From Lichenicola cladoniae (GTDB taxonomy: Bacteria > Pseudomonadota > Alphaproteobacteria > Acetobacterales > Acetobacteraceae), in assembly GCF_013201075.1 (NCBI RefSeq), contig NZ_CP053708.1, forward strand, positions 1,739,501 to 1,803,500: a stretch of 64,000 bases of DNA, in the 5' to 3' direction. Within the stretch, counting starts at the first letter, position 1; each line of letters starts with the position of its first letter. Made by a program: the position numbers and the translations under genes. Shown one piece after another: positions 1,363 to 17,696 of this stretch. A model generated the notes under the pieces. The model made no database searches, was not told the DNA's origin, and saw only the letters and a program-made list of their open reading frames with translations.

Positions 1363-2106
1363 ATGAGCAAGCTTGATGGTAGAGTGGCGATCGTCACCGG
1401 GGCGTCCAAAGGCATCGGCGCGGGGATCGCGCTGCGGCTGGCCGCCGACGGTGCGAGCGTCGTCGTCAATTACGCGCGGAGCGCGGATGCCGCCGAACGG
1501 ATCGTGACGACGATCACCGAAGCTGGCGGCCATGCCACGGCGATACAGGCCGACGTGTCCCAGCCGGACGAGATCAAGGCGCTGTTCGCCAAGGCGATCG
1601 CAGCGTTCGGACATGTCGACATTCTCGTCAACAATGCCGGCATCTACGAATTCGGCGATCTGGCCGGCATCACGCCGGACTCGATCGACAGGCAGTTCGG
1701 GCTGAACGTCAAAGGCCTGATCCTCGCCACGCAGGCTGCGGCGGAGGCTTTCCCGGCGACTGGCGGCGTCGTGGTCAACATATCGTCGGGCGCCGGCGTC
1801 ACGCCGATCGCGCAGGCGCAGGTCTACAGCGCGACCAAAGGCGCCGTCGACAGCCTGACGCGCTCGCTGGCGCTGGAGCTTGGGCCACGCAAGATCAGGG
1901 TGGTCGGGATTGCCCCTGGCCTCGTCGCCACGGAGGGCACAAGCGGCATGGGCGAGGAAGGGGCTGCCCCGTTCGTCGCCCGCACACCGCTCGGCCGTAT
2001 CGGCCAGCCCGCCGATATCGCTGCCACGGTCTCGTTCATCGTGTCCGAGGACGCCGGTTGGGTCACCGGCGAAACACTGCAGGTCGGCGGCGGCCTGCGG
2101 CTCTAG
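1363..2106 (+). CDS. Short-chain dehydrogenase/reductase (classical SDR)
   Basis: A 247-residue classical SDR, NAD(P)H-dependent and probably acting on a carbonyl or alcohol substrate. Seen: the Rossmann glycine motif TGASKGIG near residue 13, NNAG near residue 90, the catalytic serine in NISSGAG and the YSATK active-site Tyr-x3-Lys. The C-terminus (GETLQVGGGLRL) is the usual SDR ending. The ATG has an AAGGAG site 5 nt upstream. It is a single-gene unit closed by a strong hairpin and preceded by a TetR-type palindrome, so it is likely repressed until an inducer appears. Substrate unknown. Confidence 0.92.
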   Translation: MSKLDGRVAIVTGASKGIGAGIALRLAADGASVVVNYARSADAAERIVTTITEAGGHATAIQADVSQPDEIKALFAKAIAAFGHVDILVNNAGIYEFGDLAGITPDSIDRQFGLNVKGLILATQAAAEAFPATGGVVVNISSGAGVTPIAQAQVYSATKGAVDSLTRSLALELGPRKIRVVGIAPGLVATEGTSGMGEEGAAPFVARTPLGRIGQPADIAATVSFIVSEDAGWVTGETLQVGGGLRL

Positions 2107-2111
2107 CACGC

Positions 2112-2140
2112 CGATGGGCTCCGGCACCCGGAGCCCATCG
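2112..2140. terminator. Strong hairpin after the SDR gene
   Basis: A 13-bp perfect stem (2112-2124 with 2128-2140) around a CAC loop begins 6 nt after the SDR stop codon. No clear U-tract follows, but the stem lies between two convergent genes and probably serves as a bidirectional terminator. Confidence 0.6.
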
Positions 2141-2211
2141 CTCTACGGCTTTATCGGACTAAGAGGCTCGCCGGCATCATCCGGCCGGCCCCAACCCGAT
2201 CGCTTTGCCAG

Positions 2212-2679
2212 TCAGGCCCGGGCGACGACTTCGCCGCACGAGGCATGGATCCGCGTCTCGCCGCCATCGAATTCCAGGAACGGCGGCTCGAACCCGGCCT
2301 GAACCAGGGCGGCAACGGTCAGGTCGATGAAATGACGCTCTCCGGCCGGGCTGGCGATCACGATCCTGCCGTGGTGGTCGAGCGAGCGGATCGCCTGGTT
2401 GATCACCGGGTTTATGGTCGCCAGCGTCACGTGCGGCACCAGCACCAGGTCGGCGGACTGTGTCTCGGCATGCGCATCGGGTGTCCGGGCCTCGGCCTTG
2501 CGGCATTCGGTGTGCATCAGGGCACAGAGCGTGTCGGCAGCGGATGTTCCGAGAACCAGGACGCGCAACCCCTCCAGGTCGGACGTCTCGCCCACCAGGG
2601 CGATCGAGCATTGCCGGGATTGCAGGATCGTCCTTGCATAACGCAAACGGCGATCGCGAAGTGTACCACTCATTGCCAT
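2212..2679 (-). CDS. Unrecognised small protein with a Rossmann-like start
   Basis: A 155-residue protein I cannot place in a named family. The ATG has a GGAG site 4 nt upstream, and composition suits real coding. Predicted strands with a glycine turn (GLRVLVLGTSAAD) followed by ADLVLVPHVTLATINP and GRIVIASPAGERHFIDL resemble a reduced SAM-methyltransferase or Rossmann fold, but no methyltransferase motif is complete. It has no signal peptide or membrane segment, so is probably cytosolic. It is divergent from the porin and Kdp block, and the shared upstream region contains the TTTATGC elements. A member of an uncharacterised lineage family is the safest reading. Confidence 0.6.
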   Translation of the reverse strand: MAMSGTLRDRRLRYARTILQSRQCSIALVGETSDLEGLRVLVLGTSAADTLCALMHTECRKAEARTPDAHAETQSADLVLVPHVTLATINPVINQAIRSLDHHGRIVIASPAGERHFIDLTVAALVQAGFEPPFLEFDGGETRIHASCGEVVARA

Positions 2680-2806
2680 CGGTCTCCACCAGGGACATGG
2701 ACTGTCACCGGATGCCGAACAGTGAGCCGAACCCGCATAAAGGATCGATGCGTTTCAGGGGGCCGCGGGATAAAATCTAGCTAAATGCGGGTTCGCTGCA
2801 CCGGTC

Positions 2807-2856
2807 TTTATGCGGTTTTTATGCGTGCAGCTGATTTCGCCATCGAGACTTTATGC
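2807..2856 (+). promoter_or_regulatory. TTTATGC triad upstream of the porin (candidate KdpE site)
   Basis: Three copies of TTTATGC start at 2807, 2818 and 2850, spaced 11 and then 32 bp. The same geometry occurs before the kdp operon (4561, 4572, 4604). Direct repeats one helical turn apart are how OmpR/PhoB-class regulators such as KdpE bind. An inverted copy, GCATAAA, lies at 2735-2741. The third copy overlaps the first possible porin ATG (2853), which hints that the real start is further downstream. Motif and spacing are seen directly; KdpE binding is inferred. Confidence 0.55.
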
Positions 2857-4205
2857 CGGTCGTCTCCAGGGTGCCGCCGATACAGCTTGGATACCGTTCA
2901 GTGATCAGGACACGAGTTTCTATTTTCCTCGCAGGCGCCTCCTTGCTTGCGACGGGCGCGTCGGCGCGCGCCCAGACTGCCGCACAGGCCCTCTCGACCG
3001 GCACGCCCCCCGCCTCGGCGAGCGTGAACGGGACGGCCGCGACCGCCACTCCCGCCGCTGCGGCGCCGCCGAAGACCTGGGCCGAGGGCATCACCTATGG
3101 TGCGCAGGTCGAGGGTGGCGTCACAGGCAACTTCGACCGTCCCGCGGACGGGCTGAATTATGGCCGCCTGTTCGACGACAAGGCCAATACCGCGCTGCTG
3201 AACTCGGTGCAGCTGACCGCCACGCGCGCCATCGATCCCACGCTGTCGACCTTCGATTTCGGCTTCATGCTGCAGGGCACCTACGGTTCCGACGCCCGCT
3301 ACACCCACTATCTCGGCGAGTTCGGCCACGTCACCAACGATCGCAACCAGTTCAGCATCCTGCAGGCCAACGTCACCATGCATGCGCCGGTGCTGTTCAA
3401 GGGCGGCATCGACTTCAAGCTCGGCCAGTTCGCCACTCTGATCGGCTACGAGACCATCGATCCCAGCACCAACCCGTTCTACTCGCACTCGTACAACTTC
3501 AACTTCGGGCCGTTCGAGCATACCGGCCTGATCGCCGAGGCGCATATCAGCCCGACCGTGGACCTGTATGGCGAGATCGATACCGGCGAGAGCACCACCT
3601 TCGGCAGCGGCGACAACAATGCCGAGCCGGCTGGGCTGGTCGGCGTCGGGCTGAACAGCCTGGCCGGCGGCAAGCTGACCGTGCTGGCGTTCCTGCATCT
3701 CGGTCCGGAGGACGCCACCAACGCGATCGGCGGCGCGGCCAACAGCTCGATGCGCTACGAGGGCGACGTGGTCGCCACCTACAAGGCGACCGACAAGCTG
3801 ACCCTGGTGGCCGAAGCCCAGTGGCAGCACGACGATTTCTACGGCGCGGACTCCTATGGCCTCGCCGGCTACGCGTCCTACGCGCTGACCCCGACGCTCA
3901 CCGCCAACTTCCGCGGCGAGGTGTATCGCGACAATGCCGGCTTCTTCGTCGCGGCCTTCCCGGGCAACACCGATGCGTATCGCGGCCTGAACGGGCTGAG
4001 CACCACCGCGTTCGGCGCCGGGCGGCAGACCTACAGCGAGTGGACCTGGGGGGTCAGCTACAAGCCGGTGATCCCGCACGTGGCGCTGCTGGCGTTCCGG
4101 CCCGAGATCCGCTGGGACAAGTCGTTCAGCGGCGGCCACCCGTATAACGCCCTCACCAACACCGGAAACTTCACCCTCGCAGCCGACGTCATCCTCGGGT
4201 TCTAG
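2853..4205 (+). CDS. Outer-membrane beta-barrel porin (BBP2/OmpL-like)
   Basis: A 450-residue exported protein. A signal peptide (VSIFLAGASLLATGASARA, cut before QTAAQ) is followed by an Ala/Pro-rich linker and then alternating amphipathic strands through to the end. The C-terminus DVILGF ends in Phe, as required for barrel insertion by BAM. It resembles the putative beta-barrel porin-2 family, with FKLGQFATLIGYETIDPSTNPFYS-like segments cut by short turns. The ATG at 2853 lies inside a regulatory repeat; GTG at 2901 just before the signal peptide is an equally good start. It immediately precedes kdp and shares its upstream repeat geometry, suggesting passage of K+ or osmolytes across the outer membrane under potassium stress. 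Family fairly sure, substrate inferred. Confidence 0.82.
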   Translation: MPVVSRVPPIQLGYRSVIRTRVSIFLAGASLLATGASARAQTAAQALSTGTPPASASVNGTAATATPAAAAPPKTWAEGITYGAQVEGGVTGNFDRPADGLNYGRLFDDKANTALLNSVQLTATRAIDPTLSTFDFGFMLQGTYGSDARYTHYLGEFGHVTNDRNQFSILQANVTMHAPVLFKGGIDFKLGQFATLIGYETIDPSTNPFYSHSYNFNFGPFEHTGLIAEAHISPTVDLYGEIDTGESTTFGSGDNNAEPAGLVGVGLNSLAGGKLTVLAFLHLGPEDATNAIGGAANSSMRYEGDVVATYKATDKLTLVAEAQWQHDDFYGADSYGLAGYASYALTPTLTANFRGEVYRDNAGFFVAAFPGNTDAYRGLNGLSTTAFGAGRQTYSEWTWGVSYKPVIPHVALLAFRPEIRWDKSFSGGHPYNALTNTGNFTLAADVILGF

Positions 4206-4560
4206 AGGATAAAGTCTGCAGCTACTTTTTGCGGGTTGGTTGGTGAGGTTCCGGGTCGGGGTAGGCGGTGCCAAGGCGCCGCTACCACCGATCTTCCAGC
4301 AATGCATCGGACGACCTGCTTGGATCGTGTAGATCCGCGAATCACGCACCGATATGGTCGTGTTCCCTGAGTTATAGATCCTGTCAAAAACGTTTTGCGT
4401 GAGCGCCGCGTTCTCGACGCCGGTCGTCGTCCACTGCCTCCGGTGAGCCTTGGTGACGGTGATCGGCGCCTGCGACTGACAGCAGAACAACGCGATCCAT
4501 TATCGGCAGGCGGCCCGAGTTCGGGCGCGCGACTGGTCGCCATACGCCGCCACGGCATTT
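4206..4560. other. Non-coding gap between porin and kdp
   Basis: No convincing gene. A long antisense frame entering from the porin gene runs through it but looks like a GC-driven shadow. No repeat or RNA motif was recognised apart from the TTTATGC triad that follows. Confidence 0.45.
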
Positions 4561-4610
4561 TTTATGGCTTCTTTATGCCGGAGCACGAACCACGAATGTC
4601 TTCTTTATGC
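4561..4610 (+). promoter_or_regulatory. TTTATGC triad upstream of the kdp operon (candidate KdpE site)
   Basis: TTTATGG at 4561, TTTATGC at 4572 and TTTATGC at 4604 repeat the 11-bp and 32-bp spacing seen before the porin. The last element ends 41 nt before the first small kdp ORF. Position and spacing fit an OmpR-class activator site, with KdpE (encoded at the end of the same operon) the obvious candidate. The third element could instead be part of the -10 region. Confidence 0.6.
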
Positions 4611-4651
4611 GCACTCGCAGTAGATCGGCGCATCACGCAACGAGGCGTATC

Positions 4652-4735
4652 ATGCTTGACATTCTCCTGCTTTTCGCAGGCGTCGCGACCATCCTGATGA
4701 TGGATGGCTACGCCGCGCTGTGCGCACGGATCTAG
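4652..4735 (+). CDS. Tiny membrane peptide preceding kdpF
   Basis: A 27-residue ORF starting MLDILLLFAGVATILMM and ending CARI, with one hydrophobic segment and a GAGG site 6 nt upstream. Its stop is 3 nt before the kdpF start, so the two are probably translationally coupled. Small single-span ORFs at this place occur in other proteobacterial kdp operons. It may be a second accessory subunit or a leader peptide; function unknown. Too short for most gene callers. Confidence 0.55.
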   Translation: MLDILLLFAGVATILMMDGYAALCARI

Positions 4736-4738
4736 ACA

Positions 4739-4828
4739 ATGACGCTCGATCTGATCCTCGCCGGGGCCGTTTCGGTCGGCCTCCTGATCTATCTCGGATG
4801 GGCGCTGATTCGCCCTGAAGATTTCTGA
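4739..4828 (+). CDS. kdpF: KdpF, small subunit of the K+-transporting ATPase
   Basis: A 29-residue single-span membrane peptide, MTLDLILAGAVSVGLLIYLG... ending IRPEDF. It matches the KdpF pattern (hydrophobic helix, then Arg-Pro-Glu near the end), and KdpF is usually about 29 residues. KdpF stabilises the KdpABC complex in the inner membrane. The stop overlaps the GAGGAGG ribosome-binding site of kdpA, which starts 13 nt later. Confidence 0.85.
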   Translation: MTLDLILAGAVSVGLLIYLGWALIRPEDF

Positions 4829-4841
4829 GGAGGTATCCGCC

Positions 4842-6551
4842 ATGACCTCATTCGGCATCCTGGAAATCGTGCTCATCCTGGCTGCGACGTGCATCTTCGC
4901 CGTTCCGGTCGGGAATTATCTCGCCGCCGTGATGGAGGGCCGATCCACGCTCCTGGCACCCGTGCTTGCTCCGGTCGAGCGCGGCTTCTATCGCCTGTCC
5001 GGCATCGATCCGTTCCACGGCATGAGCTGGCGCAGTTATGCGACTGCATTGCTGCTGCTGAACGCGCTGCATTTCGCCATGCTGTACGCGATCCTGCGGC
5101 TGCAATTCTACCTGCCGTTCAATCCGCAGGCGGTCGTCGGCATGCCGCCGTCGATCGCCTTCAATACCGCGATCTCGTTCGTGACCAACACCAACTGGCA
5201 GGCGTACGTGCCGGAAAGCGGGATCTCGAACGGCGCGCAGATGTTCGGCCTGACCGTGCATAACTTCCTGTCCGCGGCGACCGGTATTGCCGTGGCGGTT
5301 GCCGTGATGCGGGCGCTGGCCGCCGGCGGTCTCAAGACGCTGGGCAATTTCTGGTCGGACCTGACGCGGGCGACGCTCTATGTGTTGCTGCCGCTCACCT
5401 GCGTGTTCACCATCCTGCTGATGGCGAGCGGTGTTCCGGACACGCTCCACGCCTTCGCTCAGGTGACCACTCTGGAGGGCATCAAACAGACCATTGCGCT
5501 TGGCCCGGTCGCCTTCCAGGAAGCGATCAAGGAACTCGGCACCAACGGCGGCGGCTTCTTCAACACCAACAGTTCCCACCCGTTCGAAAATCCAACCGCG
5601 CTCACCTGCGGGCTCGAGACGTTCATGCTTCTGCTGATCCCGTTCGCGCTGCCGATCGCCTTCGGGCGGATCGTCAAGGAGCCTGCTCAGGGCCGCGTGC
5701 TCCTGGCGACGATGGTCGGCATCCTGGTGATCGGCGTGTTTTGTGCGTATGGCGCGGAATCCGGCGGAAACCCGATCCTGCATGCGCTGGGCGTCAACCA
5801 GGCTCAGGGAAACCTGGAGGGCAAGGAAGTCCGGTTCGGTACCGCGCTGACCGCGCTGCTCAATGTCGGTGCCACGGGAACCTCGACCGGCGCCATCGCC
5901 GGTGCCACCGACAGCTTCATGCCGCTCGGCGGGCTGGTGCCGCTGTTTCTCATGCAGCTCGGAGAAGTCACTCCCGGCGGCATCGGCTCCGGGTTCTACT
6001 TCATCATCGTGTTCGCCCTGCTCTCGGTGTTCGTGGCCGGGCTGATGGTCGGCCGTACGCCGGAATATCTCGGCAAGAAGGTCCAGGCCCGGGAGATCAA
6101 GCTCGCCATGCTGGCGTTGCTGATCCTGACCCTGTGGATCCTGTGTGGCGCCGGGCTGGCACTCGTCCTTCCTGCCGGTCTGGCGGCTCTCGCCAATGCC
6201 GGTCCGCACGGTCTGACCGAGATGCTCTACGCCTGGACCTCGGCGACGCAAAATAACGGCAGCGCCATGGCCGGCATCACCGCCACCGGGCCGCTGATGG
6301 CCTACGGGCAGGGCTTTGCGATGCTGTTCGGTCGTTTCGCCGTGCTTATCCCGGTTCTCGCGATAGCCGGATCCCTGGCCGCCAAGCCGAAGCTCAAGAT
6401 GACGGCTGGCACCTTCCCGACCACCGGCCTGCTGTTCTGCGGCCTGCTGGCGGGGGTGATCGTCATCCTGGGCGGGCTGCAATTCCTGCCGGCCGATGCG
6501 CTCGGACCGATCGCTGAACATTTCGTGCTCCTTAGCGGCACGACATACTGA
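4842..6551 (+). CDS. kdpA: KdpA, K+-translocating channel subunit
   Basis: A 569-residue integral membrane protein with about ten hydrophobic segments, the potassium-selective pore of the high-affinity KdpFABC pump. The selectivity-filter loops are visible: [14 protein letters not shown] near residue 115, [19 protein letters not shown] near 230, [11 protein letters not shown] near 345 and [12 protein letters not shown] near 470. The strong GAGGAGG site lies 7 nt before the ATG. Length matches the family (about 560). It is second in kdpFABCDE and probably transcribed only at low potassium. Confidence 0.98.
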
Positions 6552-6559
6552 GGACCCTG

Positions 6560-8626
6560 ATGATGTCCGCAACAACCAACAACTCGGGTGAGGGCGCTTC
6601 GGCGCTCTCACTCTTCGACTCCCGGATTGCATCGCGCGCCGCCCGGGACGCCTTCACCAAGCTCAACCCGCGCCGGCTGATGCGCAATCCGGTCATCTTC
6701 GTGACCGAGATCGTCGCGATCCTGACCACGTTCATCGGCGTGGAAGACCTGTTCACGCATGGAGCCCACCCGGCCTTCGCACTCGCGATCGCGGTGTGGC
6801 TGTGGATGACCGTGCTGTTCGCGACCTTCGCCGAAGCCATGGCGGAAGGCCGCGGCCGTGCCCGCGCCGAAAGCCTGCGCCGCGCCCGCAACGAGATGAT
6901 GGCCAAGCGCGTGCCGAATCCCGACGACCCGGCGCTGTACGGCACCGTGTCCTCGACCGACCTGCGCCTCGGCGACGTGGTGCTGGTCGAGACCGGCGAC
7001 CTGGTCCCGCTCGACGGCGAGATCATCAAGGGCATCGCTTCGATCAACGAAAGCGCCATCACCGGTGAATCCGCACCGGTGATCCGCGAGGCCGGCGGCG
7101 ATCGCTCGGCCGTCACCGGCGGCACCATGGTGGTGTCCGACAGCCTGCTGGTCCGTATCACCGCCGAGCCCGGCCATACCTTCATCGACCGGATGATCGC
7201 GCTGGTCGAAGGTGCCTCACGCTCGAAAACCCCGAACGAGATCGCGCTCGACATCCTGCTCGCCGGCCTGACCATCATCTTCCTGGTCGCCGTCGCCACG
7301 CTGGTCGGCTTTGCGCACTACTCCGGCACGACGCTTTCGGTGCCGGTGCTGGCCGCCCTGCTGGTCACGCTGATCCCGACCACGATCGGCGGCCTGCTGT
7401 CGGCGATCGGCATCGCCGGCATGGACCGGTTGGTGCGCTTCAACGTGGTGGCCACGTCCGGCCGCGCGGTCGAGGCCGCCGGCGACGTCGATACGCTGCT
7501 GCTCGACAAGACCGGCACCATCACCTTCGGCAACCGCATGGCCGCCGCCTTCTACCCGGTGCCGGGCATCGACGAAGCCCGCCTGGCGGAGGCCGCCGCG
7601 ATGGCTTCGCTCGGCGACGAGACGCCCGAGGGTCGCTCGGTGCATGTGCTGGCACGCGAGAAGTTCGGCGTGCTGCCGGTGGCGCCCGCCGGTTCGATGC
7701 CGGTGCCGTTCTCGGCCAACACCCGCCTGTCCGGCCTCGATGCCGGCGAGCACTCGTGGCGCAAGGGCGCGGTGGATTCCCTGCTCGCCGCCGTCGGTGA
7801 AGCCAGGCCGCCGCTCGCCTTCACCGCCGCGGTGGAACGTATCGCCCGTTCCGGCGGCACCCCGCTGGCTGTGGCCGAGGATGGCCGCCTGCTCGGGGTG
7901 ATCGAGCTCAAGGACGTGGTCAAGCCGGGCATACGCGACCGGTTCGCCGCACTCCGTCGCATGGGCATCCGCACCGTCATGGTGACCGGCGACAACCGGA
8001 TCACCGCGGCGGCGATCGCCAGCGAGGCCGGCGTCGATGATTTCGTGGCCGAGGCCACGCCGCAGGACAAGCTCGACTATATCCGCGCCGCCCAGGCCGA
8101 GGGACGACTGGTGGCGATGTGCGGCGACGGCACCAACGATGCGCCGGCGCTGGCGCAGGCCGATGTCGGCGTGGCGATGCAGACCGGCACGCAGGCTGCA
8201 CGCGAAGCCGCTAACATGGTCGATCTGGACAGCGACCCGACCAAGCTGATCGAGATCGTCGAGATCGGCAAGCAACTGCTGATTACCCGTGGCGCACTCA
8301 CCACCTTTTCGATCGCCAACGACATTGCCAAGTATTTCGCGATCCTGCCGGCGATCTTCGTGGTGGCCTATCCCGGCCTGTCGGCGCTGAACGTCATGCA
8401 TCTGTCGACACCGCAGAGCGCCATTCTGTCGGCGGTGATCTTCAATGCCGTGGTGATCATCGCGCTGGTGCCGCTGGCACTGAAGGGCGTGGCCTTCAAG
8501 GCGATCAGCGCGGCCTCGCTGCTGCGCCGGAACCTGCTGATCTATGGCCTCGGTGGCATCCTGGTGCCGTTCGCCGGCATCAAGATCATCGACATGCTGC
8601 TCACCGCCTTCCACATCTTCGCGTAG
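6560..8626 (+). CDS. kdpB: KdpB, P-type ATPase catalytic subunit
   Basis: A 688-residue P-type ATPase that energises potassium import through KdpA. Seen: the actuator motif [11 protein letters not shown], the phosphorylation motif [22 protein letters not shown], and the hinge [19 protein letters not shown]. Membrane helices flank the cytosolic domains. The start has GAGGA 4 nt upstream and sits 8 nt after the kdpA stop. The serine of TGES, which in E. coli KdpB is phosphorylated to switch the pump off, is present. Length is normal for KdpB. Confidence 0.98.
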
Positions 8627-8638
8627 AGGAACCGCGTC

Positions 8639-9292
8639 ATGCTCACCCATCTGCGTCCCGCGTTTTCACTCGTCGTCCTGTTCACGCTGCTGCTCGGGCT
8701 GGTGTTCCCGCTCGGCTTCGTGGGTGTCGGTGCGGTCGTGTTCCCGTTCCAGGCGAACGGCAGCCTGATCGTGCGTGACGGCAAGCAGGTCGGCTCCGCC
8801 CTGATCGGCGAGAACTTTACCAGCGACCGCTTTTTCCACGGCCGGGAGTCGGCGATTTCCGGCACCGATCCGAAAGATGCATCCAAGACCGTGCCCACCC
8901 CCTACGATGCCAGCACGTCCACAGCGTCCAACCTCGCCCCGACCTCGAAGGCGCTGCATGATCGCGTTGCCGGCGATGTCGCGACGCTGGTGAAACAGGG
9001 CGCAACCGCAGGTACCATTCCCATGGATTCCGTCACCAGTTCCGGTTCGGGCCTCGATCCCGACATCTCGCCGGACTATGCCGCCCTGCAGGCGCCGGTG
9101 GTCGCGGCCGCGCGCCATGTGCCGGTCGAGACGGTGCGCCAGCTGCTCGCAGCCCACACGCAGGGCCGCATGCTCGGCGTGTTCGGCGAGCCGAGGGTCA
9201 ACGTGCTGCGGCTGAACCTGGCACTGGAATCACTGTCGCGCTCAGGCGCTGCGCCGGGCAGTGCCAACAAGGTGCAGACGAGCAGCAACTGA
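8639..9292 (+). CDS. kdpC: KdpC, K+-transporting ATPase subunit C
   Basis: A 217-residue protein with one N-terminal membrane helix (FSLVVLFTLLLGLVFPLGF) and a periplasmic domain. It holds KdpC signatures such as GSALIGENFTSDRFFHGR and GLDPDISPDYA. KdpC assembles with KdpA and KdpB. GAGGAA precedes the ATG, 12 nt after the kdpB stop. Its stop overlaps the kdpD ATG by one base. Residues 65-110 form a Ser/Thr/Ala-rich insert of little conservation. Confidence 0.96.
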   Translation: MLTHLRPAFSLVVLFTLLLGLVFPLGFVGVGAVVFPFQANGSLIVRDGKQVGSALIGENFTSDRFFHGRESAISGTDPKDASKTVPTPYDASTSTASNLAPTSKALHDRVAGDVATLVKQGATAGTIPMDSVTSSGSGLDPDISPDYAALQAPVVAAARHVPVETVRQLLAAHTQGRMLGVFGEPRVNVLRLNLALESLSRSGAAPGSANKVQTSSN

Positions 9293-12033
9293 TGCGAAAC
9301 GAGCCGGATCGTCGGCCTGATCCGGACGCACTTCTGGCGGCGCAGGCGAAGGCATCGCGTGCGCCGCTGAAGATATTCCTCGGCGCGGCGCCGGGTGTCG
9401 GCAAGACGTTCGAGATGCTGGCCCAGGCGCGCCGCCTGCAGGCCGAGGGCAAGACCGGCATCCTGGCCGGGCTGATCGAGACGCACGGGCGGGCCGAGAC
9501 CGAGGCTCAGCTCGGCGACCTGCCGGTGCTGCCGCGCCTGCAGATCCCGTATCGCGGGCAGATGCTGGAGGAGTTCGACCTCGAGGAGGCGCTGGCGCTG
9601 CGCCCGTCGCTGCTGCTGGTGGACGAACTGGCGCACAGCAACGCGCCCGGCAGCCGTCACGCCCGACGCTGGGAGGATGTGGCGGAGCTGCTGGTCGCCG
9701 GCATCCCGGTCTGGACCACGCTCAACGTCCAGCATCTGGAGAGCCTGAACGACACCGTGCTGCGCATCACCGGCATCCGGGTCAGCGAGACGCTGCCGGA
9801 CCATGTGCTGGAGCTGGCCGATGAGATCGAGCTGATCGACCTGTCGCCGAACGACCTGCGCGCCCGCCTGGTGCAGGGGCGGATCTACCGTCCCGACGTG
9901 GCGACCCGGGCGCTGGGCGGGTTCTTCCGCGAAGGCAACCTGCAGGCGTTGCGCGAGATCGCGCTGCGTCGTGCCGCCCAGCACGTCGATGCCGGCCTGC
10001 TCGACTACATGCGGCTGAACGCGATCGACGGACCCTGGCCGGCCGGCGACCGCGTGCTGGCCCTGGTTGGGCCGGAGGCCGGAGAACCGGTGCTCCGCGA
10101 GGCCAAGCGTCTTGCCGACGCGCTGCATGCGCCGTGGCTGGCGCTGCATGTGGAGCCGGCCGGCGAGGTACCGCAATCGACGCAGGCGGTGTCGCGCATC
10201 ATGGCGCTGGCAGCCGAGCTTGGCGCGGAGACCGAAATCCGCGCGGTCCGGAGCGCGCGGGAAGGGATCGTCGGCATCGCCCTGGACGTGGCGCACGACC
10301 GCAACGTGACGCAGATCGTGGTCGGCCGCATGCAGCAGCGCACCCTGCTGCGCCGGATGGTGGCTGGACGCTGCCTGCGTGGAAACCTCGCGGCCACGCT
10401 GCTGTCCCGGGCTCCCGAGCACGCGGTGCATGTGGTGCCGACCGGCGCACCCGCCCTGCGCCGTTTCGGCCTCCGGGCAAGCCTGCCGGACGGATGGCAG
10501 CCATGGGTGGTGTCCTCCCTGCTGGTGGCGTGCACCCTGGTTCTGGCCGAGATGCTGCGTGGCCTGATCGAGCCGGACGCGCTCGGGATGCTTTTCCTGG
10601 CCTCGGTGGTCGGCGCGGCGGCGCTCTATGGGCTGGCGGTGGCGCTCTGCACCGCGCTGGTGTCGTTCCTGGCGTGGAACTTCTTTTTCATCCGGCCCCT
10701 GTACCAGTTCACCATCGACGAGCCGCGCGACCTGATGGCGATCGTCGTGTTCGGTACGGTCGCCGGCGCCACCGGCCTGGTCGCCAGCCGCCTTGGCGCC
10801 TCGGCCCGCGCGGCGCAGGGCCGGATCGAGGGATTGCGGCGGATCGGGGCGTTCTCGCGTGCTCTCGGCGGTCCGGTCACCGAGAACGAGCTGCAGGACG
10901 AGATTGCGCGTCAGGCAGCCTCGATCGCGGCCCGCGCCATGGTCCTGGCCGGACGGGACATCGATGGCGAGCTGGATATCCGGGCCGCGGTACCGCCGGC
11001 GGACACCATGGACGAGGGGTCCTGGGCCGCGGCGCTCTGGGCCTGGCGCCATGGCGAACCGGCCGGCCGCGGCACCGCGACGCTGCCCTCGGCTCCCTGG
11101 CGTTTCCTGCCGATCGGGATCGCCGGTGCCGGCCCTGAAGCGGGCACCAGCGGATTGCGTGGATTGCTGGCGGTGCAGCCGGCCACGGCGCTCGATGCGC
11201 CGGCCCTCCAGGCGCTGCAGGCCCTGGCCGACCAGGCGGCGGTGGCGCTGGAGCGGGTGCGGCTGGTGCGTGGAGCCGCGGACGCGACGGCGCGCAACGA
11301 GACCCAGAAGCTACGGACCGCGCTGCTGAACTCGCTGTCGCACGACCTGCGCACCCCGCTGACCGGCATACGCGGCTCGGCCGAGACACTTCGCACCGCG
11401 TGGAGCCGTCTGACCCCCGACACGCGCGACGACCTGCTGCTGGCAATCGAGGAGGATACGCTGCGGATGACCCGCTTCCTGGCCAATATCACCGACATGA
11501 CCCGGCTCGAAAGCGGGGCCGTGGTGCCGAAGCTGGTTCGCGTGGACCCACAGGGCGTGGTGCAGGATGCGATCGCGCGCTTCGAAGGTCCGGGCCTGGT
11601 TGCGATCAGCAAGCTCGGCATGGTGCCGGCGGTGCTGGCCGATCCGCTGCTGCTGGAACAGGTCGTGTTCAACGTGCTGGACAACGCGCTGAAATATTCC
11701 CCTACGCCGGCGCCGGGGCCCGCACCGGGCACCGCCTCGGTCCAGGTCGTGCTGGCACTGGAGGCGGGCAACGTCGTCATCCGGATCGCCGACGCCGGGT
11801 CGGGTATTCCGGAAGCCGACCTGCCGAATGTATTCGACAGCTTCTACCGGTCCCAGCACGGCGACCGGGTGGTGCCGGGCACCGGGCTCGGGCTTGCGAT
11901 CGCGCGCGGCCTGATCGAGGTGATGGGCGGGAGCATCTCGGCAAGCAGCCCGGTGCCGGCGGGCGTGCCGGGCATCGTGTCCGGCATCGGGCGCGGCACG
12001 CTGGTCTCCATCGTCATGCCGGCGATACGATGA
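9292..12033 (+). CDS. kdpD: KdpD, osmosensitive K+ sensor histidine kinase
   Basis: A 913-residue inner-membrane sensor kinase for low potassium and osmotic or turgor stress. In order: N-terminal KdpD domain with the Walker-type GAAPGVGKT (about 32-40) and LLLVDELAHSN, a universal-stress-protein-like domain (about 255-375), four membrane helices (about 405-500), a GAF-like region, a HisKA domain with the phospho-acceptor His684 in SLSHDLRTPLTG, and an ATPase domain with N, G1 and G2 boxes (NVLDNALKYSP, ADAGSGIPEADL, GTGLGLAIARGL). Its stop overlaps the kdpE ATG as ATGA, so the pair is translationally coupled. Length matches E. coli KdpD (894). Confidence 0.97.
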   Translation: MRNEPDRRPDPDALLAAQAKASRAPLKIFLGAAPGVGKTFEMLAQARRLQAEGKTGILAGLIETHGRAETEAQLGDLPVLPRLQIPYRGQMLEEFDLEEALALRPSLLLVDELAHSNAPGSRHARRWEDVAELLVAGIPVWTTLNVQHLESLNDTVLRITGIRVSETLPDHVLELADEIELIDLSPNDLRARLVQGRIYRPDVATRALGGFFREGNLQALREIALRRAAQHVDAGLLDYMRLNAIDGPWPAGDRVLALVGPEAGEPVLREAKRLADALHAPWLALHVEPAGEVPQSTQAVSRIMALAAELGAETEIRAVRSAREGIVGIALDVAHDRNVTQIVVGRMQQRTLLRRMVAGRCLRGNLAATLLSRAPEHAVHVVPTGAPALRRFGLRASLPDGWQPWVVSSLLVACTLVLAEMLRGLIEPDALGMLFLASVVGAAALYGLAVALCTALVSFLAWNFFFIRPLYQFTIDEPRDLMAIVVFGTVAGATGLVASRLGASARAAQGRIEGLRRIGAFSRALGGPVTENELQDEIARQAASIAARAMVLAGRDIDGELDIRAAVPPADTMDEGSWAAALWAWRHGEPAGRGTATLPSAPWRFLPIGIAGAGPEAGTSGLRGLLAVQPATALDAPALQALQALADQAAVALERVRLVRGAADATARNETQKLRTALLNSLSHDLRTPLTGIRGSAETLRTAWSRLTPDTRDDLLLAIEEDTLRMTRFLANITDMTRLESGAVVPKLVRVDPQGVVQDAIARFEGPGLVAISKLGMVPAVLADPLLLEQVVFNVLDNALKYSPTPAPGPAPGTASVQVVLALEAGNVVIRIADAGSGIPEADLPNVFDSFYRSQHGDRVVPGTGLGLAIARGLIEVMGGSISASSPVPAGVPGIVSGIGRGTLVSIVMPAIR

Positions 12034-12731
12034 ACGCCAACGATACCGCGCTGGTGCTGATCGTCGATGACGAGAAGCAGATCCACCGCTTCCTGCGGCC
12101 TGCCCTCGAGGCGGTCGGCTATCGCACCCTGTCGGCATTCGACGGAGCGGAAGGGCTGCGTCTCGCAGCTTCGCAGACACCCGATATCGTCCTGCTCGAT
12201 CTCGGGCTGCCGGACATGGACGGCAGGATCTTGCTCGTCCGGCTACGCGCCTTCTCGCAGGTGCCGATCATCGTCCTGTCGGCGCGCGATCGCGAGGCGG
12301 AGAAGGTGGCATCGCTGGATGCGGGTGCCGACGACTATGTCGAAAAGCCGTTCGGCCTCGGAGAGCTGCTGGCGCGGCTGCGGGTGGTGCTGCGGCGGCA
12401 TGAACAGCCGCCGGATACCAGGCAGGACGAAACGCTCGCCTGCGGGCCCATCACGCTCGACCCGGGCCGTCACGAAGTGCGGGTGGATGGCGAGAAGGTC
12501 ACGCTCAGTCCGCGCGAATACCAATTGCTGGCGATGATGATGCGCCATGCCGACAAGGTGCTGACCCACCGGCAATTGCTGACCGCGTTATGGGGACCGG
12601 CGCACGGCGCCAACGTGCAGTATCTTCGCGTCTATATCGGCCAGCTCAGGCACAAGCTCGGATCGGCGGTCGCCAAGATGATCGCGACGGAACCCAATGT
12701 CGGCTACCGGCTGATCTGCGTGCCGGCCTGA
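12030..12731 (+). CDS. kdpE: KdpE, response regulator of the kdp operon
   Basis: A 233-residue OmpR/PhoB-class regulator. The receiver domain has acidic residues Asp13/Asp14, the phospho-acceptor Asp57 in VLLDLGLPDMDG and Lys106 in DYVEKPFG. A winged-helix domain follows (GEKVTLSPREYQLLAMM, HRQLLTALWG, YLRVYIGQLRHKL). Phosphorylated by KdpD, it should activate kdpFABC; the paired TTTATGC sites before kdp and the porin are its likely targets. The frame is open far upstream, but the ATG overlapping the kdpD stop is the natural start. Confidence 0.97.
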   Translation: MNANDTALVLIVDDEKQIHRFLRPALEAVGYRTLSAFDGAEGLRLAASQTPDIVLLDLGLPDMDGRILLVRLRAFSQVPIIVLSARDREAEKVASLDAGADDYVEKPFGLGELLARLRVVLRRHEQPPDTRQDETLACGPITLDPGRHEVRVDGEKVTLSPREYQLLAMMMRHADKVLTHRQLLTALWGPAHGANVQYLRVYIGQLRHKLGSAVAKMIATEPNVGYRLICVPA

Positions 12732-12766
12732 ACCAGGCGACGGGCACGACGGAGACTGTGCAGAGC

Positions 12767-14083
12767 CTATCGAGCGGTCTGTCCTCCGGCGCCGTCGATG
12801 CTGAACCGCGGGCGTCCCTTGTCGATCGACAGGCCCAGCCCGCGGTATCTGACCAGGTAGCGGATGCAGACCATCGCGGCGCCCAGCCCGGACGCGGCAC
12901 CGATTGCCAAAGCCCAGCGCGGACCGAAGCGGTCGGCCACCCAGCCGACGATCGGCGCCCCGATCGGTGTGCCGCCGAGTGCCACCGCAAGCAGGATCGC
13001 CATCACCCGGCCGCGCATGGCGGGTTCGGTCGCGAGCTGGACGGTGCTGCTCGCGGTGGTGGTGAGAGTTTGTGCGGATATCCCGATGATCAGCAAAGCG
13101 AGGCCGAACAGCCAGTAGCTCGGCATGCACGCGGCCAATACGAAACCGAGGCCGAACACCGCAGCGCCGACGAACAGGAACGCCACATGCGGTTGCGCGC
13201 GTTTCGCGGCGAGCAATGCGCCGATCACCGATCCGACCGCCATCATCGAGGTGAGCAGGCCGTAACGGCCGGCGCCGACATGAAACACCGTGACCGACAT
13301 CGTTGAAATGAAGATCGGAAAATTCAGCCCGAACGTTCCGATCAGGAACAGCATCAGCAGGATCGCGCGCAGATCGTGCCGTTTCCAGACGTAGCGGAAC
13401 CCCTCGGTGAAGCTCCCGGGCGTACGGGCCGCTCTGATGTTGGCGTGCAGGCCAGCGGTCCGGATGATGCCGAGCGACGCCAGCACGGCGATGTACGTGG
13501 CTGCGTTGATCACGAAGATCCAGCCGGAGCCGACGACCGCGATCAGCAGGCCGGCGATGGCCGGGCCGATCATTCGCGCCGCGTTGAACGACGTCGAGTT
13601 CAGCGCCACCGCGTTCGGCAGGTCGGTGTCGCCGACGAGCTCGGATACGAACGTCTGGCGCGCCGGCAGGTCGATCGCCGTCACGCAGCCGAGCAGGAAC
13701 GCGAAGACATACACGTGCCACAGCCGGACCAGCCCGGTCACGGTGAGGATGCCGAGCCCGAGTGCCAGCAGTCCCAGGGTCGCCTGGGTCACCATCAGCA
13801 GCCGTCGACGATCGAAATGATCGGCGGCGAACCCGGACAGCGGCAGCAGGAGCAGTTGCGGCCCGAACTGCAGCGCCATGACGATGCCGACCGCGGTCGC
13901 GTTCCTGTGCGTCAGCTGGGTGAGCACCAGCCAGTCCTGTGCGGTGCGCTGCATCCACGTCCCGATGTTGGACACCAGTGCGCCACCGGCCCAGACCCGG
14001 TAGTTGAAGCCCGCCAGCGAGCGGAACATGCCTGTCGGCGTCGTCTCCGGCGGGCCCTTCGCCTTTGCAGCCGGCGTGGTCAC
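12767..14083 (-). CDS. MFS efflux transporter (EntS-like MFS_3)
   Basis: A 438-residue major-facilitator protein with about twelve hydrophobic segments. The N-terminal FRSLAGFNYRVWAGGALVSNIGTWMQ and the ADHFDRRRLLM loop are typical of the EntS-like drug or siderophore exporter group. The GTG start overlaps the stop of the preceding isochorismatase-like gene (GTGA), so they are co-translated in a marR-hydrolase-MFS operon on the minus strand. It probably exports a toxic small molecule, or a product related to the hydrolase, under MarR control. Substrate unknown. Confidence 0.88.
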   Translation of the reverse strand: MTTPAAKAKGPPETTPTGMFRSLAGFNYRVWAGGALVSNIGTWMQRTAQDWLVLTQLTHRNATAVGIVMALQFGPQLLLLPLSGFAADHFDRRRLLMVTQATLGLLALGLGILTVTGLVRLWHVYVFAFLLGCVTAIDLPARQTFVSELVGDTDLPNAVALNSTSFNAARMIGPAIAGLLIAVVGSGWIFVINAATYIAVLASLGIIRTAGLHANIRAARTPGSFTEGFRYVWKRHDLRAILLMLFLIGTFGLNFPIFISTMSVTVFHVGAGRYGLLTSMMAVGSVIGALLAAKRAQPHVAFLFVGAAVFGLGFVLAACMPSYWLFGLALLIIGISAQTLTTTASSTVQLATEPAMRGRVMAILLAVALGGTPIGAPIVGWVADRFGPRWALAIGAASGLGAAMVCIRYLVRYRGLGLSIDKGRPRFSIDGAGGQTAR

Positions 14084-16350: not shown

Positions 16351-16712
16351 CCCGGTTCCTGCTTTCAAATCCAATTACCCCGGCGTGGAGACGATGGTGA
16401 ACGGACCGGCGGATAATCCGGTCGTCTATTTTGCAGAACATCGGCCGGCACACTGGATGATCGGATTGCCGACGGGGGATGGCGATTACGACGTCGATAC
16501 CTGAACATGACCATCATCCGGATCGATCCCGGCGGCGCTCCCAAAGCTGCTTTCGGCATCTTCCTGCCGGCAAAGCCGTTCCTGGCTCTGCGGGCCTTGA
16601 TGCGATCCTTACGTGAAGGTCCCCTGATCCATATCGAAGTTTTACGTGGCACGCGCGACGTTCGGCTGTGCGGCGTCCAGTCCGGACTCCGCACAGGCTA
16701 TCGAGGGTGCTC
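16351..16712. other. Mostly non-coding gap between ada and the methyltransferase gene
   Basis: No gene of recognisable family. A 36-codon ORF on the plus strand (16394-16504, MVNGPADNPVVYFAEHRP...) has a GGAG close to its start and ends 3 nt before another ATG, but nothing else supports it, so I do not call it. Divergent promoters for ada and the methyltransferase should lie here. Confidence 0.4.
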
Positions 16713-17696
16713 ATGCTCATTCAAGGCAAGTTTCGTCCGCCGGTCCCGCGTCCGGCCGTGTCTCCGGATGAAGCGGCCCACGCGTATGACGTGGCAGGGC
16801 GGAGCTACCGCGACTACGCCGACGGCGATACCGACGGACTCTTCGACTTCTCCAGCCGCTACAGCTTCGCCGACCGGCAGATCTGGCATCGTCTCGACGC
16901 CGTGCTGGTGGGCATGGCGGCCGAGGGGCGTCGGAGCGTCAGTATTCTGGATGTCGGCTGCGGGCCGGGAACCTGGCTGCAGCGGATCATCATCCGGGCC
17001 GGCAATCTCGGGTTTACGCGGATCACCGCCCGGGGCTTCGACATATCGCCGGCGATGATCGAACTGGCGCTCTCCGGGACTAGGGCCGCCGCATCGACCC
17101 TGGCACCGGGCCAGGTGCGCCTGTCGATCCAGCTCGGTGACGCGTGCCGGGAGCTGCAGGAGCCGGACCGTTCCGCCGATCTCTGCCTGTGCCTGTATGG
17201 CGTTCTCAATCACCTCCCGCGCGAGGCGCTGCCCGAGCTTGCATCCGAACTGGTCCGGGTCACGGCGCGCGAACTCTTCGTGACGGTGCGTGCAGCGGGC
17301 AGCCTGCCGACGATCTACGTCGACAGTCTCGATCGGGCCCGCGACTTCCGGCAGGACAACGACGCCGACCGCATGGAAATCGACCTGCTCGACGGGCGGC
17401 ATCTGAGTTTCCGCTCGCACCTGTTCCGGGCCGCCGACCTGCGGGCGCTGTTCGCACCGCATGTTCCGGCCCCGTGCCTGACCGGCCTGGACCTGTTCCA
17501 CAGCCGGTTTGCAACCGATCCGAGATGGAACCCCGACGCGCTGGCGACCGAGCCGGTGTTCGCGGAGCGACTCGCGCGGCTGGAGCAGTTCTGTTCGTCG
17601 GATCCGGGTTTCATCGACCGCGCCGCCCACATCATGCTGCAGGCGAGCATCGGGGCGGTTCAGCCCAGCAGCCGGCCGATGACGCGGGCGGTATAA
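16713..17696 (+). CDS. SAM-dependent class I methyltransferase
   Basis: A 327-residue protein. Motif I SILDVGCGPGTWLQR (about 75-90), the acidic loop GFDISPAMIELA and motif LCLCLYGVLNHL are those of class I SAM methyltransferases. It has no signal peptide or membrane helix. Substrate not predictable. The ATG has GAGGG 5 nt upstream; the frame continues 5' but without a better site. Its last 37 bp overlap the 3' end of hrcA on the other strand, so no terminator fits between them. Confidence 0.85.
   Translation: MLIQGKFRPPVPRPAVSPDEAAHAYDVAGRSYRDYADGDTDGLFDFSSRYSFADRQIWHRLDAVLVGMAAEGRRSVSILDVGCGPGTWLQRIIIRAGNLGFTRITARGFDISPAMIELALSGTRAAASTLAPGQVRLSIQLGDACRELQEPDRSADLCLCLYGVLNHLPREALPELASELVRVTARELFVTVRAAGSLPTIYVDSLDRARDFRQDNDADRMEIDLLDGRHLSFRSHLFRAADLRALFAPHVPAPCLTGLDLFHSRFATDPRWNPDALATEPVFAERLARLEQFCSSDPGFIDRAAHIMLQASIGAVQPSSRPMTRAV

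Follow-up and report, generated by a model that had tools for sequence, protein, structure and literature searches.

A probable third KdpE half-site at a near-fixed distance from the distal pair in kdp promoters of Lichenicola cladoniae and other proteobacteria

Introduction

The kdp promoter serves as a textbook example of two-component control, and the literature searched, which leaves out most subscription papers, gives it one KdpE site made of two half-sites. In Escherichia coli, according to the passages available from PMC3264566, this site is TTTATA-N5-TTTACA with half-sites 11 bp apart, binding is lost upon double changes in the TTTA core, the footprint at kdp extends from -72 to -50, and the KdpE DNA-binding domain occupies the half-sites independently. 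We analyzed a stretch of 64,000 nucleotides from Lichenicola cladoniae (contig NZ_CP053708.1, positions 1,739,501 to 1,803,500; hereafter the window), in which a first-pass annotation had noticed two sets of three TTTATGC-like words, one upstream of a porin gene and one upstream of kdp. It had proposed that one regulator, most likely KdpE, controls both units, the third word being either a third half-site or part of the -10 box. We asked what this third element is, and how far the array extends beyond kdp.

Results

Triads in the window and in the genome

The kdp cluster lies on the forward strand and comprises kdpA, kdpB and kdpC (positions 4842 to 9292) and kdpD (9292 to 12033), identified with Pfam, followed by kdpE (12030 to 12731), identified by reading and tblastn and 54-79% identical in those compared relatives that have kdpE. 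Ahead of kdpA we read from the sequence a probable kdpF of 29 aa (4739 to 4828, forward) and a further small ORF of 27 aa (4652 to 4735, forward) with no Pfam match. The 27-aa ORF is hydrophobic, its start lying 48 bp past that of the third half-site, and an ATG is seen at a similar place in several relatives.

Upstream of this cluster, the predicted distal KdpE pair TTTATGG-N4-TTTATGC (4561 to 4578, forward) is followed by the putative promoter-proximal half-site TTTATGC (4604 to 4610), 32 bp from the second half-site. Upstream of the porin, the predicted pair TTTATGC-N4-TTTATGC (2807 to 2824, forward), identified by sequence match, is followed by a putative third half-site TTTATGC (2850 to 2856), again at +32 and part of an exact triad match. 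The starts first reported for the two triads (2807/2818/2850 and 4561/4572/4604, including the TTTATGG at 4561) were confirmed, and their 11- and 32-bp steps are exactly identical. The word TTTATGC occurs 7 times in the window for 1.5 expected, a count reached by 0 of 100 shuffles. The two-element pattern with at most 3 mismatches is unremarkable on its own (2 matches in the window for 0.64 expected; 15 of 100 shuffles reach 2), and the pair pattern alone was dropped as evidence for this lack of significance.

We scanned the whole genome (6,061,304 bases in 8 contigs). TTTATG-N5-TTTATGC has four exact matches, half of them in the window and half on contig C5. The exact triad likewise has 4 forward matches, all of them the two window triads and their C5 copies, and its reversed control has 0. 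Contig C5 (149,789 bases; L013) carries a 97.5% identical 11-kb copy of window positions 1873 to 12871, running from within a dehydrogenase ORF (1363 to 2106) to beyond kdpE. The genome thus holds two copies of the block formed by the divergent ORF, the porin and kdpFABCDE, and hence two KdpDE systems with matching triads.

When at most 3 mismatches were allowed, triad scans of the whole genome found 12 matches with a spacing of 32, where the control had 4, and 6 with a spacing of 33, where the control had 0. The latter revealed a triad on the reverse strand of the window (2785 to 2735) that the first-pass annotation had overlooked, with 3 mismatches in the window copy and 2 in the C5 copy. 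Its distal pair is TTTAGCT (2785-2779)-N4-TTTATCC (2774-2768), found by the relaxed scan, and its putative third half-site TTTATGC (2741 to 2735) lies at +33 and is preceded by a CATCG block (2750-2746). This triad stands back to back with that of the porin, 21 bp apart, upstream of a 155-aa ORF on the reverse strand (2212 to 2679). A weak candidate triad with 2 mismatches (TTGATGC, CTTACGT and TTTACG with a CATATCG block; 16597 to 16646, forward) lies ahead of a methyltransferase ORF at 16713. A second weak triad of the same genome, at C1:1516508-1516556 on the reverse strand (L138), also has 2 mismatches and a CATATC block.

Among five searched genomes of the genus, the strict triad was found in the window's own genome only. 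Over 200 genomes, the triad pattern gave 67 matches against 23 in the reversed control, AT-rich genomes yielding chance matches. Matches away from kdpFABC included triads ahead of a Kup potassium transporter in the congener G002 (L105; Pfam K_trans, 1.6e-171), of a TorF-family porin (L104), of a porin-like ORF (L107; a weak assignment resting on a BLAST E-value of 3.7e-4 only) and, at L099-L101, of ORFs resembling the 155-aa ORF with a DapA-like ORF behind (named by reading). Two further triads from two genomes (L102, L103) precede kdpDE divergent from kdpFABC, and those at L106, L108 and L109, which have no sensible target, may be chance matches.

The distal pair as a KdpE site

The window pairs share the 11-bp step and the TTTA core with the E. 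coli KdpE site, which reads TTTATAC-TTTT-TTTACAC in the K-12 kdp upstream sequence, and the kdp pair lies upstream of kdpFABC with KdpD and KdpE encoded in the same cluster. In upstream regions from relatives, the kdp pair is kept in 17 of the 20 regions of a first set and exceeds the threshold in 53 of 57 family regions. The distal pair is accordingly one we predict to be a KdpE site of the known kind. For kdp, the proposal of KdpE control therefore stands on published half-site geometry, on kdpDE in the cluster and on the conservation of the pair.

Conservation and spacing of the third element

The first family set comprised 57 distinct kdpA upstream regions, in each of which the best pair was chosen without using the third element. 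Among the 53 that passed, a core-exact third element occurs at +33 in 36 and at +32 in 5, with at most 3 at any other offset. We then enlarged the set to 178 regions (the family, 80 named loci, 40 from other classes within the phylum, and E. coli), 175 of them non-redundant, and applied a stricter pair threshold, which 101 passed; the other 74 of the 175 have no strong pair and were left out of the count. With the pair choice again blind to the third element, a core-identical third element is found in 67 of these 101 kdp promoters, at +33 in 50 and at +32 in 17, while offsets 31 and 34 have 2 each and all other offsets from 18 to 94 at most 4 each. The array is conserved before kdp with near-rigid spacing. 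By set, the third element is present in 39/49 family promoters, 12/27 of the named loci and 16/25 of the phylum set. The spacing is 32 in the window and its congeners L050 and L051, and 33 at most family loci; in the phylum set, 10 promoters have 32 and 6 have 33.

The core of the third element is TTTG rather than TTTA in E. coli (TTTGCAG at +32), L283, L288 and L293, where the element may be weak or lost. No convincing triad was seen by eye at the loci of other phyla (L185, L199, L217, L222, L223, L226 and L231). Several sphingomonads (L169, L200, L218 and others) have no clear pair under the half-site types used; L169 and L200 have TTAATGC-like repeats, possibly reflecting another KdpE specificity.

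Position of the third element in the core promoter

In the 37 family promoters with spacing 33, counting from the third element as zero, a CATCG-like block spans -9 to -5, position -7 being T in 97%, and position +17 is A in 68%; the block T is present in 98% of all 50 loci with spacing 33. At the 17 loci with spacing 32 the block is less marked, with T and C at 47% each at the position of its T, and A at +17 is seen in 59% and T at +21 in 65%. Outside the family, 16 loci have spacing 33, and their A-rich stretch is shifted downstream by one base (A 56%, T 75%): counted from the second half-site, A is not enriched at +50, and the enriched positions are A at +51 and T at +55. If the A is read as -11, the third element would span about -28 to -22, the block would fall at -35 with a 17-bp spacer, and the pair would lie near -72/-61. 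The same reading applied to E. coli places its pair at about -71, which agrees with the footprint reported, and puts TTTGCAG where the third element would be.

On this reading, the probable -35 region of the porin promoter is a CATCG block (2841 to 2845, forward), with a putative -10 CAGGGT (2867 to 2872) placed by analogy with the family promoters. At kdp, AATGT occupies the place of the family CATCG block (4595 to 4599, forward) as the probable -35 region, and TAGATC (4621 to 4626) is a putative -10, placed by the A that is enriched at +49/+50 from the second half-site.

The suggestion that the third element forms part of the -10 box is the less well supported of the two, as family promoters have a separate -10-like A about 17-18 bp further on. 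That it is a third half-site gained support from its recurrence at +32/+33 and from its type, which tends to follow that of the pair and the KdpE helix (see below). We rejected a sigma70 -10 or -35 box as the leading reading of this element, whose sequence varies by clade with the KdpE type. In a broader form, the element would be a core-promoter word read by a sigma factor (a variant -35, spacer or -10 word) and not by KdpE. Its kept distance to the A-rich -10-like stretch is what such a word would show, the TTGA-type elements of L264, L274 and L287 resemble a -35 box, and several rhizobial third elements read CTGACC or TTGACC. We nevertheless consider this unlikely, because the letters (TTTA, CCTA, TATA, TTGA) differ according to the pair and the KdpE helix, and the spacing-33 loci have a separate constant block at the expected -35 place. 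The third element is probably a third KdpE half-site located between -35 and -10.

Half-site type and the KdpE recognition helix

The pairs fall into the types TTTATGC, CCTATGC, TATATGC and TTGATGC; the list of types was made after viewing the first relatives, so that type assignment is not blind. The first three letters of the third element match those of its own pair at 2.55 of 3 on average, against 1.85 (sd 0.07) when shuffled between loci, and 0 of 2000 shuffles reach the observed value. By type, we used 88 of the 101 loci, with the third element chosen without regard to its positions 1-3. The third element follows a TTTA pair in 41/54 loci, a CCTA pair in 15/23, a TATA pair in 7/9 and a TTGA pair in 2/2.

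We compared these types with KdpE residues 191 and 197 (E. coli numbering) at 42 of the 57 family loci, excluding loci without a KdpE match and L116, whose match is not KdpE. The array tends to match the helix: with Y/G the pair is TTTA in 19 of 20 loci and the third element TTTA in 17 of 20; with Y/S both are TTTA (2 of 2 each); with Q/R the pair is CCTA in all 14 and the third element CCTA in 12 of them; with Y/R both are TATA in 4 of 6. Triads away from kdp in the Q191/R197 genomes G112, G031 and G193 are likewise of the CCTA type (L312, L316 and L360). In the passages available from PMC3264566, Y191 stands at the position where PhoB T194 contacts bases, and G197 is not discussed. Discordant cases are the rhizobial L187, L188 and L197, with a CCTA pair and a TTTA third element, the non-kdp triad L314 (mixed CCTA/CCTA/TTTA in a Y/R genome) and L306, whose third element is TTGA in a Y/G genome. 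At L374 and L375 (G065 and G186) the KdpE helix reads YLRVSVWQLR and the triads are mixed (TTTATGC/TTGATGC/TTGACGC or TTGACGT), which is possibly a further specificity type.

We placed 76 of the 101 rows on a KdpE tree, with the helix columns kept in. It offers 4 to 6 independent contrasts, of which the third element follows the pair in about 2 and opposes it in 0, a number that cannot reach significance; this small number of independent type switches also leaves room for the sigma-factor reading. Counted by loci, the covariation of type is strong; counted by independent events, it is thin. The protein that reads the pair seems to read the third element as well.

The divergent 155-aa ORF

The 155-aa ORF has no Pfam or NCBIfam match; its structural model is of low confidence (mean pLDDT 62.6) and shows a weak, partial likeness to a class I methyltransferase fold (best E 4.3e-4, TM 0.37). 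Homologs occur in 14 of 200 family genomes, its own included. We scored the best triad upstream of each of the 16 loci from this search against a null built for somewhat shorter windows, whose 99% level is 23.4 and maximum 28.8. The two own copies score 29.0 (L303) and 30.0 (L317), and the closest homologs, in three other genomes, bear triads too: L304 (72% identical) 26.8, L305 (63%) 28.8 and L306 (54%) 26.8. CCTA-type triads are found at the distant homologs L312 (28.0) and L316 (32.6), and L308, L309, L310, L313 and L314 have intermediate scores of 24.8-27.0. L307 and L318, apparently one split homolog in G002, have no triad (21.0), and the scores of L311 (15.8) and L315 (17.6) are badly placed, the underlying matches being spurious (E 0.81 and 0.98). 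A single score of 25-28 is no more than suggestive; the CATCG-like block that precedes most of these triads lends them weight. The L099-L101 triads are no evidence of conservation, since these loci were found by the triad pattern itself. Some distant homologs (G145, G094 and G010) lie near kdp by coordinates. On these scores, the 155-aa gene is predicted to be a better conserved additional KdpE target than the porin.

The porin

The porin (2901 to 4205, forward, with an in-frame GTG start at 2901 proposed by eye) belongs to the BBP2 outer-membrane family (PF07642, E 1.2e-61; 209.3 bits for a cut-off of 26.2), with relatives in 77 of 200 family genomes, its own included. We scanned 51 porin upstream rows, the window included, and compared them with a null of 565 windows drawn from the coding sequence of kdp loci. 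The G002 and G055 places appear twice among these rows, G041 and G082 read alike, and L107, found through its own triad and so not independent, has no row. The window scores 33.0, against a null 99% level of 23.4 and a null mean of 19.9. Three other rows exceed the 99% level: L360 (27.5), L359 (25.5) and L320 (24.3); by eye, one of the three half-sites is poor in L359 and likewise in L320. Within these 51 rows, a clear porin triad was found in the window species only, and a probable one in G193 (L360). Porins lie near kdpA by coordinates in G013, G034, G041, G055, G082 and G176, and the corresponding loci (L351-L356 and L337) have triad scores of 18.8-22.3.

The claim that KdpE also controls the porin thus fared less well than its kdp part: the site here is strong, and it is absent from nearly all orthologs scanned and from a 96% identical paralog. 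Same-genus orthologs have no good triad (G002, 19.8; G004, 24.3 with a poor third element), and the third BBP2 copy of this genome, at C1:1406430 (96%), scores 18.8, below the null mean. For these reasons we rejected the porin as a conserved regulon member; KdpE control of it, if there is any, would have been acquired or retained in this lineage. These same orthologs and the paralog are what one would expect if the triad were inherited or chance sequence without effect and the porin no KdpE target. That reading appears quite improbable to us, given three half-sites matching at 7/7, exact 11/32 spacing and the CATCG block, the 0 reversed-control matches in the genome, and the CCTA-type triad of the G193 porin, whose score is reached by about 1 in 565 null windows.

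Discussion

We favour, with some reserve, the reading that each triad is a KdpE-dependent promoter activated by KdpE from two positions. A KdpE dimer would occupy the distal pair at about -72 and -61. A further protomer would bind the third half-site near -28, within the spacer that separates a weak -35 block (CATCG/TCGAA) from the -10. Upon potassium starvation, phospho-KdpE would activate from both sites, in the class I manner at the upstream pair and in the class II manner of PhoB at the core promoter. The same array would here drive kdpFABCDE, the outer-membrane porin and the small divergent gene. Binding, the transcription start and activation at the triads are what we infer from the arrays.

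PhoB class II arrays consist of contiguous 11-bp half-sites that continue down to about 17 bp before the -10. The triads resemble the Pho box in the family of the predicted regulator (OmpR/PhoB), the 11-bp register and a putative promoter-proximal half-site about 17 bp before the presumed -10. They differ in that the half-sites are not contiguous, one register remaining empty, and in that the register before the third half-site holds the CATCG block, which does not follow the KdpE type.

KdpE on the third half-site might instead act as a brake: at high KdpE-P, a protomer in the -35/-10 spacer would block RNA polymerase and cap expression. The element would lie inside the core promoter, and a lone half-site could be the last to fill, given that the E. 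coli DNA-binding domain binds half-sites independently in the passages available from PMC3264566. A pure operator, however, needs no fixed 32/33-bp distance to the pair, and yet this distance is kept. PhoB, moreover, activates from a place similar to that of the third half-site. We regard a brake as improbable and retain activation from both positions.

The arrays resemble the E. coli kdpFABC site in having two TTTA-core repeats 11 bp apart upstream of kdp, together with kdpDE, and on our reading the E. coli footprint (-72 to -50) fits the distal pair. The published E. coli site, in the passages available from PMC3264566, has two half-sites, whereas here a third of the same type lies 32/33 bp downstream; nothing is described there at the TTTGCAG at +32. 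Genome-wide KdpE targets were mapped in E. coli by ChIP-exo, with 31 peaks upstream of 37 genes and kdpFABC as the chief target; the passages available from PMC7657598 contain neither a third half-site nor a KdpE porin target. KdpE also activates kdpFABC in Mycobacterium smegmatis, from a different site, a single 22-bp motif of other sequence at a SigF promoter, and the available part of that 2017 paper counts only four species whose kdpF promoters had known KdpE sequences (PMC5401905). In Sinorhizobium fredii, also an alphaproteobacterium, KdpE binds the promoter of kdpFABC; the available text uses neither the term motif nor the term binding site, and KdpE did not bind kup there (PMC9239096). 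A same-genus relative of L. cladoniae has a triad before kup (L105), so that a KdpE-Kup link would be lineage-specific. We found no description of a third KdpE half-site, or of a KdpE-controlled porin, in the literature searched, most subscription papers being outside it.

KdpE sites as such are known already; what the searched literature does not describe is the putative third half-site at a near-fixed distance, and this is the part that merits testing. Whether the three-half-site array is general in proteobacterial kdp promoters (weakened in E. coli) and activates from upstream and from the core promoter, with residues 191/197 as a specificity code for all three half-sites, we regard as an even question. 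If a third half-site is retained at a near-fixed spacing across alphaproteobacteria and further classes of the phylum, the present model of the KdpE switch would need revision, and the correspondence between two helix residues and the half-site letters would allow KdpE targets to be predicted in genomes and specificity to be tested by a clean swap.
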